From Spirochaetota bacterium (GTDB taxonomy: Bacteria > Spirochaetota > UBA4802 > UBA5550), in NCBI GenBank assembly GCA_017999915.1, contig JAGNKX010000010.1:138381-202380 (forward strand): 64,000 nucleotides of DNA, written 5' to 3'. The translations under genes were made by a program, and so were the position numbers. The notes beneath the pieces were generated by a model. It did not search any database. It saw nothing but the letters and a program-made list of their open reading frames with translations, and was not told where the DNA came from. Below are positions 948-41,177 of this stretch, piece by piece (positions within the stretch are counted from its first letter, which is position 1; each line of letters begins with the position of its first letter).

Positions 948-1616
948 TCATTTCTTCAAATTTTTCTTGAGCACATCCATCAGGACGTCCTGCCCCGCCT
1001 TGTTCAGGTGCACCGGGTCCATGGCGTAGTCCGGATTGAGGCCCCCGTTTTTCAGGAGATGGGGATACACGTTGACATAGGTCACGCCCCTCTTTCGGCA
1101 GATGCGTTCGAGCTGTTCGTTGAGCGCGACCAGGGTGGAATTCTTGATGATAATGGCCGGGTCCACCGGCAGGTTGCTGAGGCAGTAGACGTTTTTGCTG
1201 ACACCCTTGTAGTAGCCGAGGAGCTCGTCATAATTGCGGTACGTGTCCTCCGACGGGAGCTTGGCGACGAGGTCGTTCCCGCCGACTAGGACGACGATCC
1301 GGGCAGGTTTAAGCAGGGAGACCTTTTCCCTGCGATCGAGGAGCGTCCTGGTGGTGCTGCCGCGGTAGGCGTAGTTGCAGGCCGGCTCCGACAAGTAATC
1401 CTGCACGTTGATCAGCTCGATATTGCTGTCTCCCTCGAAGAGCGTGCATCCGGCGGCGCACGACTTCTTGTTGATCTCCTGGATTTTCTTTACGTGGTCG
1501 GTGAACTTTTGATAGTTGGATACCCTCCTGGCGGCGCAGCCAGAGAGGAAGGCCGCCAGGACGAGAATGATTGCGGCGGTGAAGGCCCTGCGGGCCCGCG
1601 TCTTTCGCGGGGCCAT
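948..1616 (-). CDS. SGNH/GDSL-family hydrolase lipoprotein
   Basis: I place the start at ATG 1616 (222 aa), not at ATG 1700, because only the inner start puts the signal peptide at the N-terminus: basic stretch, hydrophobic core, lipobox LSGC with the lipidated Cys near residue 27. The SGNH blocks are visible: GDSN (about 62-65, nucleophile Ser), GGND (about 112-115, oxyanion Asn) and DPVH near the C-terminus (catalytic Asp and His). Such enzymes remove acyl or acetyl esters from lipids or surface polysaccharides; the substrate cannot be read here. It is the last gene of a minus-strand run after glpK and the small MshEN-like gene, which ends at 1701. The upstream ATG at 1700 abuts that stop codon, so coupled translation with an N-terminal extension remains possible. 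Confidence 0.75.
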   Translation of the reverse strand: MAPRKTRARRAFTAAIILVLAAFLSGCAARRVSNYQKFTDHVKKIQEINKKSCAAGCTLFEGDSNIELINVQDYLSEPACNYAYRGSTTRTLLDRREKVSLLKPARIVVLVGGNDLVAKLPSEDTYRNYDELLGYYKGVSKNVYCLSNLPVDPAIIIKNSTLVALNEQLERICRKRGVTYVNVYPHLLKNGGLNPDYAMDPVHLNKAGQDVLMDVLKKNLKK

Positions 1617-1700
1617 GGAGCGATCGGATCCCCCGGTCCCGGTATCGGCGATGATGGGCAGCGCCTCGGCCGTTTTTGGGAATGCCGTGAAGGGACGCAT

Positions 1701-1895
1701 CTATGACGACGTGACCCTCTCCGCCTGTATGGCAAGGTACTTCACCAGGGTCTGCTCTGTTATTGCGCCCATGGTAACGAGGATGATCCCGATCAATCCT
1801 CCCTCTTTTTTCTGTATCTCAATGGCCTTATCCAGCTGTTCCTTGGATATTTCCTTGTTTTCCAACAGAATCTCACCCAACAATGGTCGTGCCAT
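1701..1895 (-). CDS. Single-domain MshEN/GspE N-terminal-like protein
   Basis: This 64-residue protein is one complete copy of the helical module found at the N-terminus of GspE/MshE/PilB secretion ATPases. Two half-motifs are visible: LLGEILLENKEISKEQL with KAIEIQ, then LIGIILVTMGAITEQTL with KYLAIQ. In MshE this module binds cyclic di-GMP through RLG..L and L...Q positions; here the first Arg is Leu, so nucleotide binding is uncertain. No ATPase domain follows: the frame stops and the SGNH lipoprotein begins. A GGGAGG site precedes the ATG. The gene is 51 bases downstream of glpK and probably shares its transcript. A role as a small adaptor or c-di-GMP-binding protein is inference. Confidence 0.6.
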   Translation of the reverse strand: MARPLLGEILLENKEISKEQLDKAIEIQKKEGGLIGIILVTMGAITEQTLVKYLAIQAERVTSS

Positions 1896-1946
1896 GATTA
1901 TCCTCCCGGTAATAATTATACATGGTAATGCCCTATGGCGTTATTT

Positions 1947-3434
1947 CTACAGCAACAATCTCCTGATGGCGTCCTTCCAGATGGCGATCTGGTGCTCTCG
2001 CACGGGAGCGTCCATGGCTGGAGTATATTTTGACGATATCTTGTTGTTCTTCGCTATTTCACTGATGGAGCCGTACACCCCCCCGGTGATGCCGGCCAGG
2101 TAGGCCGCCCCCAGGGCCGTCGACTCCGTGATCTCCGGAAGCAGTACCGGGATGTCAAGGATGTCGGCCTGGAACTGCATCAGGAAGCTGTTTTTGGTGG
2201 CCCCGCCGTCGACGCGCAGCTCCGGGATCGTCGTCCCGGTGTCGTCCTCCATCGCTTCGACCAGGTCCCTCGACTGGAGGGCTATGGCCTTGAGGGCCGC
2301 CATGACGATTTCCTCACGGGACGTGTCCCGGGTCAACCCGAAAATGGCTCCCCGGGCGTCCATGTTCCAGTGGGGCGCTCCCAGTCCCACGAAGGCGGGA
2401 ACCACGACGACATTGCTCTCCCTGGCCACGGATTTCGCCATGTCCTCCGAATCGGCGCTTACGGCGAAGAACTTCAGGTAGTCCCGCAGCCACTGCACCA
2501 CGGCGCCGCCTATGAAGACCGAGCCCTCCAGCGCGTAGACCGGGCGCCCGCCGTCGTCGCAGGCGAGGGTGGTGAGGAGGCCGTTATGGGAAATGGCGAA
2601 GGTGTCGCCGTTGTTCATCAGCATGAAACAGCCGGTGCCGTAGGTGTTCTTTGAGCTCCCGACAGTGACGCAGTTCTGTCCCACCATGGCCGCCTGCTGG
2701 TCGCCGGCGATGCCGCCAATGACGACGCCGTCCGGAAGGCCCGGCGCGTTCCTGGTGACGCCGAATTTCGACGCCGACGCCATGACCGTGGGGAGTATCT
2801 TTTTCGGAACGGAGAGGATGTTCAGCAGCTCATCGGACCATTCCTTCTTGCGGATGTCGTACATGAGGGTGCGGGACGCGTTGGTGTAATCCGTGGCGTG
2901 GGACACGCCGTCCGTCAGCTTCCACAGGATCCAGGTGTCGATGGTGCCGAAGAGGAGCTTGCCGCTTTCGGCCAGGGCCCGGGCCCCCTGCACGTTGTCC
3001 AGGAGCCACTTGACCTTGGTGCCTGAAAAGTAGGCGTCTATGACCAGGCCGGTGGTGTTGCGGAAAACGCTTTCGTGGCCCGCCTTCTTCAGCTCGTTGC
3101 AGATGTCGGTCGTGCGGCGGCACTGCCACACGATGGCCCGGTGGATCGGCCTGCCGCTGGTCTTGTCCCAGAGGAGGGACGTTTCGCGCTGGTTGGTGAT
3201 GCCGATGCCGATGGCGTCGGACGGATTGAGGCTTCCCCGGGAGATCGCCTGGGGGATGAGGGCGCTCACGGAGTCCCATATCTCCTCCGCGTCGTGCTCC
3301 ACCCATCCCGGTTTCGGGAAGTGCTGGGTGAACTCCTTGTAGGCGCTCGAGATCGGCAGGCCCTGTTCGTTGAAACAGAAGACCCTGTTGCCGGTGGTGC
3401 CGAGGTCTATGGCTATGATAAAACGCGTTCCCAT
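1947..3434 (-). CDS. glpK: Glycerol kinase
   Basis: Glycerol kinase phosphorylates glycerol with ATP to sn-glycerol 3-phosphate in the cytoplasm, feeding phospholipid synthesis and glycolysis. The FGGY-family features are clear: the phosphate-1 loop AIDLGTTGNRV at the N-terminus, TNQRETSLLWD with GRPIHRAIVWQCRRT, and the C-terminal ATP-binding LRVDGGATKNSFLMQFQADIL. I start at ATG 3434 (495 aa, normal for the family) because a GAGG site precedes it, homologues begin here, and the upstream in-frame start at 3500 lies inside the promoter. No glycerol facilitator or glycerol-3-phosphate dehydrogenase is adjacent. The transcript probably continues into the MshEN-like and SGNH genes. Confidence 0.96.
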   Translation of the reverse strand: MGTRFIIAIDLGTTGNRVFCFNEQGLPISSAYKEFTQHFPKPGWVEHDAEEIWDSVSALIPQAISRGSLNPSDAIGIGITNQRETSLLWDKTSGRPIHRAIVWQCRRTTDICNELKKAGHESVFRNTTGLVIDAYFSGTKVKWLLDNVQGARALAESGKLLFGTIDTWILWKLTDGVSHATDYTNASRTLMYDIRKKEWSDELLNILSVPKKILPTVMASASKFGVTRNAPGLPDGVVIGGIAGDQQAAMVGQNCVTVGSSKNTYGTGCFMLMNNGDTFAISHNGLLTTLACDDGGRPVYALEGSVFIGGAVVQWLRDYLKFFAVSADSEDMAKSVARESNVVVVPAFVGLGAPHWNMDARGAIFGLTRDTSREEIVMAALKAIALQSRDLVEAMEDDTGTTIPELRVDGGATKNSFLMQFQADILDIPVLLPEITESTALGAAYLAGITGGVYGSISEIAKNNKISSKYTPAMDAPVREHQIAIWKDAIRRLLL

Positions 3435-31559: not shown

Positions 31560-31740
31560 GTAATGGCTTACGCGTGAGACCTGTTATATCACTGTCATCG
31601 ACGAATCCCTGTAATACGGGATGAGGATAAATCTTTTTCTGGATATTTATATTCATGGATTTCTCACACCGCCAAGCGGGGTTCGAAATGACATATATAG
31701 ATAAACAAAAAGTCAATTATTGATTGAAGGAAGGTGGTAT

Positions 31741-32496
31741 ATGAATCGTCTTGTTGTGAAGCCGCGGTATGTCGGTTTATTGGCACTCGCGCTGATGGTC
31801 CCCGTTCTTGTCATGGGCGGCGACAAGGGACCGGTGATATCTTCCACGGCGGCGCTGAAGCTTTTAAAAGACGGCAACGCCCGGTTTGTTTCGGGAAAAC
31901 GTCAATACCCCAACCAGGGCATGGAGAGGCTTGAAGAGACGAAGAAGGGCCAGCATCCCTTCGTCACCATCCTCTCCTGTTCCGATTCGCGCGTTTCCGT
32001 GGAGCACATCTTTGACGCGGGCATCGGCGATATTTTTATCATCAGGGTAGCCGGCAACGTCAGCGGCATTGACGAGATCGCCACCATGGAATACGGCACG
32101 GAGCACCTCCATACGCCCCTCCTGGTCGTCCTGGGCCATACGGCCTGCGGCGCGGTTACGGCGGTCACCAGGGGCGACAAGGTGGGCGGCAGCATTCCCC
32201 ATCTCGTCGGCAGGATCAAGCCGGCCGTCGCAAAGGCGAAGAAGAAGGAGGGCCCGGAGTTCTCTGAAAAGCTCCTCGACGCGGCCATCCGGCTCAACGT
32301 ATGGCAGGCCATCGAGGACCTGTTCAAAAAGAGCGATATCGTGGAGGAGCTGGTCAGGGAAAACAAGCTGACGGTTGTCGGCGCGCTCTATCACCTTGAC
32401 ACCGGCGAGGTTGAATGGCTGGGCGGGCATCCCGATCAGAAAGCGCTCATGTCCGGAGCGGCTAAGTCAGGGGCAGGGAAACATAAGCACAAGTAA
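31741..32496 (+). CDS. Exported beta-class carbonic anhydrase
   Basis: Beta carbonic anhydrases interconvert CO2 and bicarbonate with a Zn held by two Cys and one His. The motifs are present: SCSDSRVSVEHIFD and VLGHTACGAVTAV, plus SIPHLVGRI and VVGALYHLDTGEVEW at the C-terminus. ATG 31741 with AGGAAGG upstream gives 251 aa and an N-terminal signal peptide (about 25 residues ending VMGG), so the enzyme works outside the cytoplasm, perhaps to balance periplasmic pH or inorganic carbon. The C-terminal tail is Lys/His-rich. It stands alone between terminated cheW and the 61-aa Cys-rich gene. Confidence 0.92.
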   Translation: MNRLVVKPRYVGLLALALMVPVLVMGGDKGPVISSTAALKLLKDGNARFVSGKRQYPNQGMERLEETKKGQHPFVTILSCSDSRVSVEHIFDAGIGDIFIIRVAGNVSGIDEIATMEYGTEHLHTPLLVVLGHTACGAVTAVTRGDKVGGSIPHLVGRIKPAVAKAKKKEGPEFSEKLLDAAIRLNVWQAIEDLFKKSDIVEELVRENKLTVVGALYHLDTGEVEWLGGHPDQKALMSGAAKSGAGKHKHK

Positions 32497-32660: not shown

Positions 32661-32846
32661 ATGACAACAATAACCGATAAAGACCGTGAGATGGCTCAGC
32701 GTTGCGCCGAGTGTCCCGTATGCTCCCGGGCCAGGAAAAAACAGCGCGGCATTGCCTTCTGGTTCGTCAAGAATATCGAAAACGGCCTGTGTCCCTACTG
32801 CGCGGCCTATGAAAGGGTTTACGGCAAGAAGGCCCACGAAGCCTGA
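32661..32846 (+). CDS. 61-aa Cys-rich protein upstream of hyuA-like gene
   Basis: ATG 32661 has AGGAAGG nine bases upstream. The 61-aa product is basic, with Cys at four places: QRCAECPVC (three Cys, spaced 2 and 2) near residue 15 and LCPYCAA near 44. The Cys-x2-Cys pairs suggest a zinc ribbon or a metal/redox site. No family is recognised. It lies only 17 bases before the HyuA-like gene and is probably co-transcribed with it and the HDAC-like gene, which itself carries a Cys-pair tail. Confidence 0.55.
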   Translation: MTTITDKDREMAQRCAECPVCSRARKKQRGIAFWFVKNIENGLCPYCAAYERVYGKKAHEA

Positions 32847-32863
32847 CGGATCGGCCAGCGGTC

Positions 32864-34537
32864 ATGGCATCATCGGATCTGTATCTCGGCCTTGACGTCG
32901 GCGGGACCCATACCGACGCGGTACTTGTCGGCGACAGTGGGATTGTCTCCCACTACAAGGCGGTCACCGACCACTCCAACCTGCTCCTGTCGGTGCGCAA
33001 AGCCATAGAGGAAATCACCAGGGATGCCGACAAAACCAGGATCAGGCGGATAAACCTCAGCACCACCCTTTCCACCAACGCCATCGTCGAGGACAAGCTC
33101 GAGGATGTCTGCGTCATCATATCCTCCGGCCCCGGCATTGACCCGGGGAATTTCAAGATCGGCGCTTCCTTTAATATGATCGAAGGGTCCATCGACCACC
33201 GGGGCAAGGTCGTCAAGGGCTTGGACGCGAAGGCCATCGCGCGCATCGGCGCCGATGCCGGCAAGAAGAAGATCAGGACCTTCGCCGCGGTCACGAAGTT
33301 CTCGACCCGCAACCCGGACCAGGAGAACGAGATAGCCAGGGAGGTCAAGGCCGCGTCCGATTTCATCACCCTGGGTCACAAGCTCTCCGGGCAGCTCTCC
33401 TTTCCGCGGCGCATTGTCACCGCCTATTTCAACTCGGCGGTGTGGCGCCTGTACAACTCCTTCGCCGACGCCATCGCCAAGGGGCTGGGCGAGCTGGGTA
33501 TCAGCGCCGAGATCAACGTCCTGAAAGCGGACGGGGGCACCATGCCCTTTTCGCTCTCCCGGGACATCCCCGTGGAATCGATCCTGTCAGGGCCGGCGGC
33601 CAGCGTCATGGGCATCGCGGCCCTCTGCGACATCACCCAGGACTGCATCATGCTCGACATCGGCGGAACCACCACGGACATCGCCATCTTCGCCGACGGC
33701 GTGCCCATCATAGAGAACGACGGGATTGCCCTGCAGTCCTATCCCACCCTGGTGCGGGCCCTGAAGACCCGCTCCATCGGCATCGGCGGCGATTCGGTCA
33801 TTCGCCTGAAGGGGAAAGAGGTCACCGTGGGGCCGGACCGGAAGGGGCCCGCCATGGCGGCCGGCGGGGCGGAGCCGTCCCTGGTGGACGCGCTGAACAG
33901 CCGGAAGGTCATCAGTTACATGGACACCGAGGCCTCCGTGAAGGGCATCGCGGCCCTGGCGAAAAAGGCCGGCCTTTCTGCGGCGAAGCTCGCGGACGCT
34001 GCCTTTGATTACGCCGTGGGACGCATCAGGGACGAAGTGAATGACATGCTCGACGGTATCAACAACCGGCCGGTCTACACCATCCACGAGATGCTGGAGG
34101 GGAAGAAGATCGCGCCGAAGAAGGTATATGTCATGGGAGGGCCCGCCAGGGGCTTCCGCGACAGGCTGGCCGACGCCTTCGGCATCGAGGCCGTGCTCCC
34201 GGAGAATTTCGACGTGGCCAACGCCATCGGCGCCGCCCTGGCCAAGACGACCATCGAGATCGAGTTCTACGCCGACACGAGCCGTGGCGAGCTCCTCATC
34301 CCGAACATCGGCGTGCGCCAGAAGATACCCGCCGGCTACACGCTGAAGGACGCGGAGCGCGACGCCCGCAAGCACCTGGCGGCCCACCTGAAAGGGCTCG
34401 GCGTGCCGGTATCTGAGGCGGACACGGACATCATCGAATCATCATCGTTCAACATGGTTGACGGATTTTATACCGCGGGCAGGGACATCCGGGTCAAGTG
34501 CCAGATCAAGCCCGGCGTGATCAAGAGGCTCTCATGA
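32864..34537 (+). CDS. HyuA-family hydantoinase/oxoprolinase-like ATPase, short form
   Basis: The 557-aa protein has the ASKHA-type nucleotide sites of the Hydantoinase_A family: DVGGTHTDAVLV (phosphate 1), LDIGGTTTDIAIF (phosphate 2), SIGIGGDSVIRL and an adenosine site YVMGGPARGFRD near the end. Characterised relatives use ATP to open cyclic amides (hydantoin, 5-oxoproline) or activate ketones for carboxylation, always with a HyuB partner. Here HyuB is absent and the protein is shorter than the usual 650-700 aa. Its stop overlaps the start of a histone-deacetylase-family gene (ATGA), showing translational coupling. The substrate cannot be read from sequence; a cyclic or N-acyl amide is likely (inference). 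Confidence 0.88.
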   Translation: MASSDLYLGLDVGGTHTDAVLVGDSGIVSHYKAVTDHSNLLLSVRKAIEEITRDADKTRIRRINLSTTLSTNAIVEDKLEDVCVIISSGPGIDPGNFKIGASFNMIEGSIDHRGKVVKGLDAKAIARIGADAGKKKIRTFAAVTKFSTRNPDQENEIAREVKAASDFITLGHKLSGQLSFPRRIVTAYFNSAVWRLYNSFADAIAKGLGELGISAEINVLKADGGTMPFSLSRDIPVESILSGPAASVMGIAALCDITQDCIMLDIGGTTTDIAIFADGVPIIENDGIALQSYPTLVRALKTRSIGIGGDSVIRLKGKEVTVGPDRKGPAMAAGGAEPSLVDALNSRKVISYMDTEASVKGIAALAKKAGLSAAKLADAAFDYAVGRIRDEVNDMLDGINNRPVYTIHEMLEGKKIAPKKVYVMGGPARGFRDRLADAFGIEAVLPENFDVANAIGAALAKTTIEIEFYADTSRGELLIPNIGVRQKIPAGYTLKDAERDARKHLAAHLKGLGVPVSEADTDIIESSSFNMVDGFYTAGRDIRVKCQIKPGVIKRLS

Positions 34538-35844
34538 TAAAGGCAAAGAACAGCATGGGGCTCATCTTCTTCCCCGCCTTCGACTGGGCCATATCGCCGA
34601 CCCACCCGGAGCGGGAGGAGCGGCTCCTCTACACCCAGGACCAGCTCAGGGAGGAGGGGATCTTTGACATCGACGGCCTCTCCGAGTTTAAGCCGGACAT
34701 CGCCACGGAAGAGGACGTGATGCGCTCCCATTTCTGCTTCCCCGACGTGGACACGGTGACCACGGAGTCGCACATGATCTCCGCCGGCGGCGCCATCAAG
34801 GCGGCGCGCATCGTCATGGACGGGACCGTGGACAAGTCCTTCGCCCTGGTGCGGCCGCCGGGACACCACGCCATGAAGTCGGTCCACGGCAACCGGGGCT
34901 TCTGCAACATCAACAACGAAGCGATCATGATCGAGTACATCCGGGACCATTACGGCACCCGGAAGATAGCGGTGGTGGATACGGACTGCCACCACGGCGA
35001 CGGCTCCCAGGACATCTACTGGAACGACCCGGACGTGCTCTACATTTCGATCCACCAGGACGGCCGCACCCTCTACCCCGGCTCGGGCCACGTGGACGAG
35101 CTCGGCGGGCCCAACGCCCTGGGGAAGACCATCAACATCCCCCTGCCGCCGGAGACCTGCGACGAGGGGTTCCTCTACGCCATCGACGAGATCGTGCTGC
35201 CGATCCTGAAGGACTTCAAGCCGGAGCTGATCGTGAACTCCGCCGGCCAGGACAACCACTACACGGACCCGATCACCAACATGAGTTTCTCCGCCCAGGG
35301 ATACGCGATGCTCAACGAGAAGCTCAACCCGGACATAGCGGTCCTCGAGGGGGGATACTCCATCCAGGGGGCGCTTCCCTACGTGAACCTGGGGATCATC
35401 CTGGCCATGGCCGGCGTCGACTACTCCCACGTGCGGGAGCCCGATTACCGGAAGGAAGCGCTCCGGCAGGACGCGCGCATCACCGAGTACATCAGGAAGC
35501 TCAAGGACGTGGTGCTGGACGCCTACTTCAACCCGCCCGAATACGAGAACCTTCCGCCCTACGGCGACTTCATGACGCGGAAGAAGAACGTCTTCTACGA
35601 CACCGACGGCATACGGGAGACGCAGATAGAGAAGATCATGCGATGCAAGGAATGCTCCGGCCTCTACAGCCTGGAGACCTTCTCCACGGTCTGCTCCCTC
35701 TCCCTCGGTATCGAGATCCCCATCGGCGCGTGCAAGAAATGCGTGAAGGAAGGGGTGAAGCTCCTGAACGACGCGAAGAAGTCGGGGAAGTTCAATACCA
35801 TCCAGGTCATCGACCGCGTGAAGAAAGAATACTACCGGGTGTGA
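34534..35844 (+). CDS. Histone-deacetylase-family amidohydrolase with Cys-rich tail
   Basis: ATG 34534 overlaps the hyuA-like stop by four bases; 436 aa. The arginase/deacetylase fold motifs are complete: RPPGHHA (about 107-113), GFCNINNEAIM, VVDTDCHHGDGSQDIYW (149-163, metal Asp and His), AGQDNHYTDP (second metal Asp about 240) and LEGGYS (catalytic Tyr about 275). These enzymes hydrolyse N-acyl amides, such as acetyl-polyamines or acyl-lysine. Signature changes from the consensus (HHGDG for HHGNG, AGQDNH for AGFDAH) mark a sub-family. The last 65 residues carry CKEC (about 371) and CKKC (about 402), a probable Zn-ribbon. In the same operon with HyuA, it may act on a ring-opened amide (inference). 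Confidence 0.9.
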   Translation: MIKAKNSMGLIFFPAFDWAISPTHPEREERLLYTQDQLREEGIFDIDGLSEFKPDIATEEDVMRSHFCFPDVDTVTTESHMISAGGAIKAARIVMDGTVDKSFALVRPPGHHAMKSVHGNRGFCNINNEAIMIEYIRDHYGTRKIAVVDTDCHHGDGSQDIYWNDPDVLYISIHQDGRTLYPGSGHVDELGGPNALGKTINIPLPPETCDEGFLYAIDEIVLPILKDFKPELIVNSAGQDNHYTDPITNMSFSAQGYAMLNEKLNPDIAVLEGGYSIQGALPYVNLGIILAMAGVDYSHVREPDYRKEALRQDARITEYIRKLKDVVLDAYFNPPEYENLPPYGDFMTRKKNVFYDTDGIRETQIEKIMRCKECSGLYSLETFSTVCSLSLGIEIPIGACKKCVKEGVKLLNDAKKSGKFNTIQVIDRVKKEYYRV

Positions 35845-36063: not shown

Positions 36064-37308
36064 ATGAACGTATATTCAACGCTTTCCCTTATCGTATCAA
36101 TCCTCATGGTCATCCTGGCGATCTACGGGTATCGCATCGATTCGTCTCGACGGGAAAACAAATATTTTTTTTATTTGCTGATATGCTATTCCTATCTGCT
36201 TTTTATCATGGTATTCGTCCATTCGGCGCCATCAAAGGACTCTGTTGTTTTCTGGTACAAGATGACGGCTCCGGGTCTCGCCCTCTTCGACGTGTTAAAC
36301 CTGAACCTGTATCTTGCCGTCGATAAAAGGAAGCTTAGGCCCTGGCAGCATGCGCTCCTGTATATTCCGGTCCCGTTTGTCGTCTACGCCATACTCTTTG
36401 ATGTTTGTCTCTTCTCGGATTTCATCTACAATGACGGTTCATGGATTTTTATTACCGCATACGGATATTTCTGGTTTTACTTCTATGTGGCGTACGTTTT
36501 TTCCTATTCGCTCGCCAGTCTCGTGATCATGTTTCGCCGCATGAGACGGAGCGTTACGATCAAGGAGCGTCGTCAGGCGTTTGTTTTGTTCCTGGCCATG
36601 TTGAGCCTACTGTGTGTCGTTTTACCCATAGATTTTATAATTGAGAAATATTTTCATACAAAAATACCGGCCATAGGGCCCCTGGTGCAGGCCATATTTT
36701 ATGTCCCTGGCGTGTGGTACGCCATTTCGCATTACCGCCTGCTGCATGTGGGTCCTTCCCTCATGGCGGATGACATCATCATGCACATCCATGAAATGGT
36801 GATCCTTCTCGGGCCGGACCTCAGGATACTTTCGGTAAACGCCTACGCCGTGGAGCTCCTGGAATTCCCGGCGGACAGCCTCAATGGGAAGGATGTGGGG
36901 GATATCCTCCAGGATTCGGATTACCTGATGGATGAGCTTCGCGCGGTCGCCGGCGGGGGCGAAGGGTCCCGGGAGACGCGGGCCATGTTCAGGGGAGGCG
37001 GTGACCGTATTGTCGCCGAGATCTATCTCTCCGGGCTGAAGGACAGGTTCGGCGATCCGGCGGGAGTGCTCATGATAGCCCGCCCCGATCATTCCACCGG
37101 CGAGTTCCTGCGCCGTTACCGCATCACACCACGCCAGATCCAGGTGATCGACGCGCTCATCCGCGGGGAGAGCGCCCGGGAGATCGCGGCCCGGACCGGG
37201 CTTTCCGAGCGGACGGTGGAGACCCACATCATGAACATCTACAATCGCCTCGGCGTCAATAACCGCATCGAGCTTGTTCGCATGACGCGCAAATACGGTA
37301 TGGAATAG
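36064..37308 (+). CDS. 7TM-PAS-LuxR membrane transcription regulator
   Basis: The N-terminal 230 residues contain about seven membrane helices (first IVSILMVILAIYGYRI). A PAS-like domain follows at about 240-340 (MVILLGPDLRILSVNAYAVELL). The C-terminal 65 residues are a LuxR-type helix-turn-helix: ITPRQIQVIDALIRGESARE and LSERTVETHIMNIYNRLGV. This layout is a one-component membrane regulator that senses an unknown signal and binds DNA directly; it has no kinase or receiver domain. Such proteins are common in spirochaetes. Start ATG 36064 has AAGGG about ten bases upstream. It is followed by the Cys-rich lipoprotein gene, which could be a target (inference). Confidence 0.9.
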   Translation: MNVYSTLSLIVSILMVILAIYGYRIDSSRRENKYFFYLLICYSYLLFIMVFVHSAPSKDSVVFWYKMTAPGLALFDVLNLNLYLAVDKRKLRPWQHALLYIPVPFVVYAILFDVCLFSDFIYNDGSWIFITAYGYFWFYFYVAYVFSYSLASLVIMFRRMRRSVTIKERRQAFVLFLAMLSLLCVVLPIDFIIEKYFHTKIPAIGPLVQAIFYVPGVWYAISHYRLLHVGPSLMADDIIMHIHEMVILLGPDLRILSVNAYAVELLEFPADSLNGKDVGDILQDSDYLMDELRAVAGGGEGSRETRAMFRGGGDRIVAEIYLSGLKDRFGDPAGVLMIARPDHSTGEFLRRYRITPRQIQVIDALIRGESAREIAARTGLSERTVETHIMNIYNRLGVNNRIELVRMTRKYGME

Positions 37309-39705: not shown

Positions 39706-40104
39706 ATGTCGAGGTGTGACAAAAAATATAAGGATGAAAACAAACCGTTCATCTGCGAAAATTGCGGCAGGGGAGTCGTGCCGGCGGAATCATATACGCG
39801 GAACAGGAATCACTGCCCTGAATGCCTCTGGAGCAAGCATGTTGACCTTCGCACCGGTGACCGGATGTCGGTATGCAGGGGACTTATGGAGCCGATCGGC
39901 GTATGGGTGAAGGATCGTGACGAATGGGCCCTCATTCACCGGTGCGTGAAATGCGGATCCATAAGGGCCAACAGGATAGCGGGGGACGATAACCGGACGC
40001 GGCTTATGAACCTGGCCATCAAGCCCGTGATGCTGTTCCCGTTTCCATATGCCGCCCTGAGCGGCGATGATCCCGGACAGGGGAAACAGGGAGGAGCGAG
40101 ATGA
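39706..40104 (+). CDS. RNHCP-domain protein
   Basis: The 132-aa protein carries the RNHCP signature: FICENCGRGV, then RNRNHCPECLWSKHVD, DRMSVCRGLMEPIGVW, and HRCVKCGSIRANRIAGDDN. Four Cys pairs suggest two zinc sites, and the fold is thought to bind RNA or act with the ribosome, but no reaction is established for the family. ATG 39706 has GAGAGGA upstream. The stop overlaps the start of rsgA by four bases (ATGA), so the two proteins are made from one transcript and probably act in the same process, small-subunit assembly. Confidence 0.88.
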   Translation: MSRCDKKYKDENKPFICENCGRGVVPAESYTRNRNHCPECLWSKHVDLRTGDRMSVCRGLMEPIGVWVKDRDEWALIHRCVKCGSIRANRIAGDDNRTRLMNLAIKPVMLFPFPYAALSGDDPGQGKQGGAR

Positions 40105-41177
40105 ATCGTTCGAAGCTGGGATGGAATGACTCGCTTGAGGAACAGCTCCTCCGCTGGAGCGGATCGGGCCTGGCCCCGGGAAGAATCGTGGGCGAGGCGG
40201 GCCATGGCTACGACGTTGAAACTGATGCGGGAAGGTTCAACGCCGTGGTGTCGGGGCATTTCCGCTATATTGCGGCGTGCCGGGCGGACTATCCGGCGGT
40301 CGGTGACTGGGTCCTCCTGCGCGGTGAAAAAGACCCTCTTCAGATTGAACGGGTGCTCGAGAGGGGTGGTTTTTTGTCGCGCCGCGCGGCAGGCAGGAAA
40401 TGCGACGAGCAGGTCATTGCCGCCAACATAGACCTGATGCTTATCGTGGCGGCTCTTGACGGCGGGCGAAATTTCACGCAACACGGGATTGAGAGATACA
40501 TAGTCATGGTGCGCGACGGAGGCGCCATGCCCGTGATCGTTTTAAACAAGTGCGATCTCTGCTCTGAAAGCGAGAGAAGCGATTATCGCGCCATGGCCCG
40601 TTCGGTTGCCGGAGATATACCCGTTATCATGGTGAGCGCGCTGACGGGCGAGGGCATGGAGCAGCTGCAAGAATTTCTCACCCCGGGGATCACCGCAGCC
40701 TTAACCGGGCCGTCGGGAGCGGGAAAGTCGGCCCTCATAAATTATCTTCTGGGAAAGGAGATCCAGAAGACCGGGGCCCTGAGAGAGAATGATATGCGGG
40801 GGAGGCATACCACGACCAGGAGGGAGCTTTTCATGCTGGGCGGCGGCGCGATGGTGATTGATACCCCGGGTCTCAGGGAGCTCCGTCCATTCGGAGATGC
40901 CGGGTCGATCGATATGGCTTTCACGGAGATTTCCTCGGCCGCGGGAGGGTGCAGGTTTTCTGACTGTACTCATACGAATGAGCCCGGGTGCGAGGTGCTT
41001 CGGCTTGTATCGGAAGGGAGAATCGAATTCGGGCGGTATCAAAATTACATCACCATAAGAAACGAGATGATGTCGCTTGAGATGATGAAAAGTGAACAGG
41101 GGAGGCTTCAGAGAAAGAGCCGCGACAAGGCGCTGTCAAAACTGGTAAAGAGCTATCTTAAAGAGCATGGGAAATAG
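40101..41177 (+). CDS. rsgA: Ribosome small-subunit-dependent GTPase RsgA
   Basis: RsgA is a late-acting 30S assembly GTPase. It has an N-terminal OB fold (about 30-85, beginning GRIVGEAGHGYDVETDAG), a circularly permuted G domain in the order G4 NKCD, G5 SALTG, G1 GPSGAGKS, G3 DTPGLRE, and a C-terminal Zn-knuckle (CRFSDCTHTNEPGC). The length, 358 aa, is typical. ATG 40101 overlaps the RNHCP stop. The catalytic His region RGRHTTTRRELF (switch I) is intact. No phosphorylation or fusion oddity is seen. Confidence 0.96.
   Translation: MNRSKLGWNDSLEEQLLRWSGSGLAPGRIVGEAGHGYDVETDAGRFNAVVSGHFRYIAACRADYPAVGDWVLLRGEKDPLQIERVLERGGFLSRRAAGRKCDEQVIAANIDLMLIVAALDGGRNFTQHGIERYIVMVRDGGAMPVIVLNKCDLCSESERSDYRAMARSVAGDIPVIMVSALTGEGMEQLQEFLTPGITAALTGPSGAGKSALINYLLGKEIQKTGALRENDMRGRHTTTRRELFMLGGGAMVIDTPGLRELRPFGDAGSIDMAFTEISSAAGGCRFSDCTHTNEPGCEVLRLVSEGRIEFGRYQNYITIRNEMMSLEMMKSEQGRLQRKSRDKALSKLVKSYLKEHGK

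Follow-up and report, generated by a model that had tools for sequence, protein, structure and literature searches.

Organization of the Locus

The analyzed window, a 64,000-nucleotide stretch of DNA from the genome of a member of the Spirochaetota (5.46 Mb, 99% complete), contains a compact array of three open reading frames that are all encoded on the forward strand. The first (32661-32846), denoted P0001, encodes a putative small protein of 61 amino acids with five cysteines in the arrangement CxxCxxC...CxxC, and its stop codon lies 17 bp upstream of the second gene. The latter, hyuA (32864-34537), encodes a short HyuA-type ASKHA ATPase of 557 amino acids with full-length matches to the Pfam domains PF05378 (1e-24) and PF01968 (2e-40); the closest named record for this protein comes from an uncultured Spirochaetes MAG (85% identity). 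The third gene, hdac (34534-35844), encodes an HDAC-fold Zn amidohydrolase of 436 amino acids that matches PF00850 (3e-66). The two larger genes overlap by ATGA, with the ATG of hdac at 34534 sitting within the stop of hyuA, and an AGAGG sequence is present a few bases 5' of the hdac start. The open reading frames and the ATGA overlap had been described in an earlier sequence-only reading of this DNA, along with a 61-residue protein with four or more cysteines 17 bases upstream; the window coordinates confirm all of these, with five cysteines counted.

The third-position GC content reaches 0.87 in hyuA and 0.93 in hdac (window 32864-35841), compared to 0.67-0.75 in the neighboring genes that were checked; this difference may be due to high expression or to a history of its own. 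Just 5' of the locus, on the same strand, lies a gene for a beta-type carbonic anhydrase (31720-32496). Bicarbonate is required by the ATP-dependent lactamase CapAB; given, however, that no carbonic anhydrase adjoins the pair in related loci, this proximity is probably a coincidence. On the other side, a gene for a 7TM-PAS-LuxR regulator (36064-37308) begins about 220 bp after the pair, also on the forward strand, and, further downstream, an RNHCP-domain gene overlaps by four bases a gene which we take to encode a protein resembling the GTPase RsgA (39706-41177).

Conserved Features of the HyuA-Like and HDAC-Fold Proteins

The predicted structure of HyuA (pLDDT 92) most closely matches the ApcA-type subunit 5l9w_b (Z 29.9), CapA (6yra_A, Z 29.4; rmsd 5.8 over 518 aligned residues) and 5svc_B (Z 26.9). 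Both phosphate-binding motifs are present. The phosphate-1 motif, DVGGTHTD (residues 11-18; 32894-32917, forward strand), includes D11 and T15, which are invariant in 73 aligned homologs, and D18, which is conserved in 69 of the 73; the phosphate-2 motif, DIGGTTTD (residues 265-272; 33656-33679, forward strand), includes D265 (73/73) and D272 (72/73). D11 and D18 match the identically numbered residues of CapA, and D265 and D272 align with CapA D295 and D302; the D11A and D295A substitutions nearly abolish CapA activity (PMC8453981). In place of the GxxPGP adenosine motif found in CapA, the protein has GPxRxGP with a five-residue gap. Moreover, it is about 140 residues shorter than CapA (557 versus 696 amino acids), mainly through losses in a loop region and toward the C terminus. 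Because of this shortening and the altered adenosine motif, the use of ATP by HyuA is not certain.

The model of the HDAC-fold protein (pLDDT 90) adopts the arginase/deacetylase fold and matches the bacterial HDAHs and Kdac1 with Z of about 41 (rmsd 2.0 over about 320 residues, with about 30% identity). All catalytic positions are invariant among 71 homologs, namely the His dyad H111-H112 (34864-34869), the zinc ligands D151 and H153 (34984-34992) and D240 (35251-35253), the last of which resides in the clade-specific motif AGQDNH, and the transition-state tyrosine Y275 (35356-35358), all on the forward strand. Equally invariant (71/71) are the four cysteines of a C-terminal ribbon, C371, C374, C400, and C403 (35644-35742, forward strand), which falls outside the region covered by known HDAC structures (residues 5-336). 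Thus, the assignment of this gene to the HDAC family in the sequence-only reading is borne out, but the protein's own four-Cys ribbon had been overlooked. The acetylpolyamine deacetylases of the HDAC10 type carry a glutamate gatekeeper after an Asp-Pro dipeptide; position 247, which we take to be the gatekeeper site, also follows Asp-Pro and is occupied by isoleucine or leucine, not glutamate, in all 71 sequences. The conservation of the catalytic residues (71/71 for all those of HDAC, 73/73 for D11, T15, and D265 of HyuA) contradicts the possibility, raised at the outset, that the enzymes are inactive.

Alternatively, HyuA might not be a substrate kinase but might instead use ATP to activate or regulate the HDAC-fold protein. 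The latter would then be a protein or metabolite deacylase, and its Cys ribbon would contact HyuA or the target protein. ASKHA activators do exist, and the 2-hydroxyacyl-CoA dehydratase activators match the HyuA model with Z of about 16. Furthermore, the HDAC-fold protein, with its invariant extra ribbon, is better conserved than HyuA (55% versus 38% mean identity within Firmicutes), and a syntrophic Firmicute shows widespread lysine acylation (PMC9676460). However, the substrate-phosphorylating HyuA, CapA and carboxylase subunits are far better structural matches (Z 25-30), and the residues equivalent to CapA D11, D295, and D302 are retained, so that we consider an activator role unlikely.

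Phyletic Distribution and Linkage of the Pair

Genomes were sampled from the Spirochaetota (198 genomes) and from the Firmicutes phylum to which locus L034 belongs (348 genomes). The HyuA clade is represented in 32 of the 198 spirochete genomes and the HDAC clade in the identical 32; the two genes are linked, adjacent and in the same order in 30 of these and unlinked in the other two. In the Firmicutes phylum, either gene is found in 140 genomes, including 135 with both, two with HDAC alone and three with HyuA alone. Where both occur, they share a strand, with hyuA preceding hdac, in all genomes but one (134/135), and the aligned regions are separated by a median of 33.5 bp. The five single-gene cases are artefacts of contig ends: remnants of the partner were detected in three, and a contig end falls inside the gene in two. 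Thus, hyuA and hdac are an obligate unit in both phyla, with linkage in 164 of the 167 genomes that carry both genes and retention of both in the three genomes where they are unlinked (G010, G023, and G523). The concern that the adjacency might be confined to a single genome is thereby dispelled. In the phylum of locus L035, the HDAC clade was found in only 2 of 245 genomes, and therefore the distribution of the pair is patchy beyond the Spirochaetota and the Firmicutes phylum. The distance matrices of the two proteins are correlated (r = 0.93), a value to which the shared species history contributes.

The adjacency recurs in two phyla; no true hyuA-hdac fusion was found among the loci examined, and the long open frames in G269 resemble a frame-disrupted hyuA. 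The gene order is inverted on a short contig of G304 (L203:2-538 and 1383-3071), where the end of hdac lies 5' of hyuA. In G523 (L180:7420-10151), hdac and hyuA are unlinked and lie on either side of genes whose products, judged by eye, look like a ThiF/MoeB protein, a small ubiquitin-like protein and an aldehyde ferredoxin oxidoreductase. A pattern scan revealed no virus-borne copies, and there were no plasmid-borne close relatives at 80% coverage. Neither HyuA nor HDAC matches any PADLOC model, and P0001 has one weak match at chance level; an anti-phage defense system is thus not indicated.

Chance neighbors do occur, which is all that can be said for the view that hyuA and hdac are adjacent without any functional link. 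With 164 of 167 genomes showing linkage across two phyla and both genes kept where they are apart, this view is nearly refuted.

Absence of HyuB and the Status of the Small Cys-Rich Protein

Proteins of the HyuA family normally open ring-shaped molecules using ATP, with HyuB as the usual partner. The sequence-only reading had noticed that HyuB is missing beside hyuA, and this observation extends to the entire 99%-complete genome, where HyuB (PF02538) is absent. Likewise, HyuB is absent in 31 of the 32 spirochete genomes with the pair, the exception being G039. A HyuB hidden elsewhere on the chromosome was thus not found in this genome or in these 31. A functional partnership of hyuA and hdac that dispenses with HyuB is strongly supported.

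The two proteins could also be separate enzymes that act in sequence, as parts of a small pathway of salvage or repair. HyuA would use ATP to open or modify a cyclic amide and release the product, after which the HDAC-fold enzyme would cleave an acyl amide, neither forming a complex nor taking over the role of HyuB. Such an arrangement would account for the obligate co-occurrence even in the three genomes with unlinked genes, and the closest solved HDACs are free-standing. Nevertheless, no further neighbor family beside the pair is common to both phyla, so that a conserved third pathway gene is lacking, and we know of no characterized precedent for a ring-opening HyuA without HyuB. We therefore regard the pathway as somewhat unlikely.

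P0001, which had been grouped with the pair in the sequence-only reading, falls outside the conserved unit. It has no Pfam or NCBIfam match, and its homologs were identified in 15 of the 46 genomes of the order to which the window belongs but adjoin hyuA only in the same genus as the window and in genus g4; moreover, G127 encodes a homolog and lacks the pair. A role as third subunit is accordingly rejected, and P0001 is dispensable and accessory at most.

The mutS-mutL Context in Firmicutes

Among the 39 neighborhoods fetched from Firmicutes, 15 contain the pair between mutS and mutL, within an operon of the form miaB-(ylbF)-mutS-pair-mutL-miaA-hfq-(spoVK). This context, and the finding that in two of the genomes with unlinked genes (G023 and G010; L093:9689-10405 and L095:6056-6748) a PF10108 PolB-type 3'-5' exonuclease is encoded immediately after hyuA, could indicate that the pair serves nucleic acid maintenance or tRNA modification. 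However, the mutS-mutL loci are confined to one clade of each tree (the most recent common ancestor covers 20 of the 73 HyuA and 19 of the 71 HDAC sequences), and therefore a single old insertion, which would suffice to explain the position in the operon, is likely. Furthermore, one locus (L199:5413-10338; miaB-ylbF-[hyuA-hdac]-miaA-hfq) is missing both mutS and mutL and retains the pair between ylbF and miaA, which weakens the case for mismatch repair in particular, and the remaining 23 Firmicutes loci together with all fetched loci of Spirochaetota lie outside this context. On balance, a role in nucleic acid maintenance or tRNA modification appears very unlikely.

Proposed Mechanism and Candidate Substrates

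Given that the two genes almost always occur together in two phyla and that HyuB is missing, their products are probably an undescribed two-part enzyme. The specific reading that we favor, with a probability of roughly 0.4, is that the two proteins constitute an obligate and self-contained module, with HyuA activating an amide by means of ATP and the HDAC-fold zinc enzyme hydrolyzing the same substrate. Under this scheme, the HyuA-type ASKHA protein would bind ATP and phosphorylate or otherwise activate a stable amide, which might be a lactam, an imide, a hydantoin-like ring or a hindered acyl amide, and the HDAC-fold enzyme would perform the hydrolytic step in place of the metal-binding HyuB/CapB half. 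A physical complex of the two proteins, the ATP-dependent activation, a common substrate and its identity are all features that we infer. The module reading has to contend with the fact that HDAC-fold enzymes usually hydrolyze linear acyl amides without ATP. By analogy, ATP-driven activation followed by hydrolysis is plausible, and the two-part scheme has a precedent because two known systems are so divided: in CapAB, the subunit with the ATP site activates the lactam and the Zn subunit opens it (PMC8453981), and PxpABC, which consists of unrelated proteins, is assumed to divide the labor between a phosphorylating and a ring-opening half (PMC13274462).

With respect to the substrate, the first candidate to consider would be a product of endogenous damage, for example 5-oxoproline, because PxpA (PF03746) was detected in none of the 46 genomes of the order in question and nearly all genomes with the pair lack HyuB. 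This argument is undercut by the finding that, in the same order, the genomes without the pair also lack PxpA. In the Firmicutes phylum, PxpA is present in 31 of the 140 genomes with either gene of the pair (22%) versus 72 of the other 208 (35%; p 0.016, a value that ignores phylogeny); complementarity between PxpA and the pair is thus a weak trend in this phylum. The more far-reaching proposal, that the pair is a separately assembled class of ATP-dependent amide or lactam hydrolases in which the HDAC fold replaces HyuB, and that it fills the place of a missing 5-oxoprolinase or of a comparable enzyme of metabolite repair, must be considered unlikely.

The partnership is near-perfect in two phyla, and the pair is found in about 40% of the sampled Firmicutes phylum. 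Should HyuB indeed be replaced by the HDAC-fold enzyme, the same kinase half would work with two unrelated metal hydrolases. Many 'oxoprolinase' and 'histone deacetylase' annotations would then need a new name and role, a use of bacterial HDACs other than lysine or polyamine deacetylation would come to light, and a metabolite-repair enzyme would be available to bacteria that seemingly lack one.

Comparison with Known Systems

No description of the pair was found in the open-access literature, nor any relevant work connecting mutS/mutL to a hydantoinase or an oxoprolinase to a deacetylase; an earlier mention in subscription journals is possible. A survey of the classical deacylases of bacteria from 2024 (PMC11532494) mentions no hydantoinase partners in its main text.

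The closest parallel is the ATP-dependent lactamase family (CapAB, HyuAB, and OplAB), with which the pair shares the CapA fold, the ATP-site aspartates and a metal hydrolase as the partner gene; unlike these systems, it has an HDAC-fold partner and no HyuB/CapB, and its HyuA differs from CapA in being about 140 residues shorter, in having GPxRxGP for GxxPGP and in missing one charged loop. The acetophenone and acetone carboxylases possess related HyuA-type subunits (5l9w_b and 5svc_B, respectively) but, in contrast to the pair, employ a HyuB-type subunit, none of which is encoded in the genome analyzed here. The resemblance to the 5-oxoprolinase PxpABC lies in the proposed combination of phosphorylating and ring-opening halves (PMC13274462); no sequence relation is claimed, and PxpA is absent from the whole order. 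On the hydrolase side, the HDAC-like amidohydrolases HdaH and Kdac1, which belong to cluster 1 of the survey (PMC11532494), have the same fold and full catalytic set but lack the invariant AGQDNH motif, the C-terminal four-Cys ribbon and the obligate HyuA partner, and the HDAC10-type acetylpolyamine deacetylases differ in the glutamate gatekeeper that the protein described here does not have at position 247. Thus, each of the two proteins comes from a known family, and what appears to be new is the combination, a HyuA without HyuB and an HDAC with an obligate ATPase partner.
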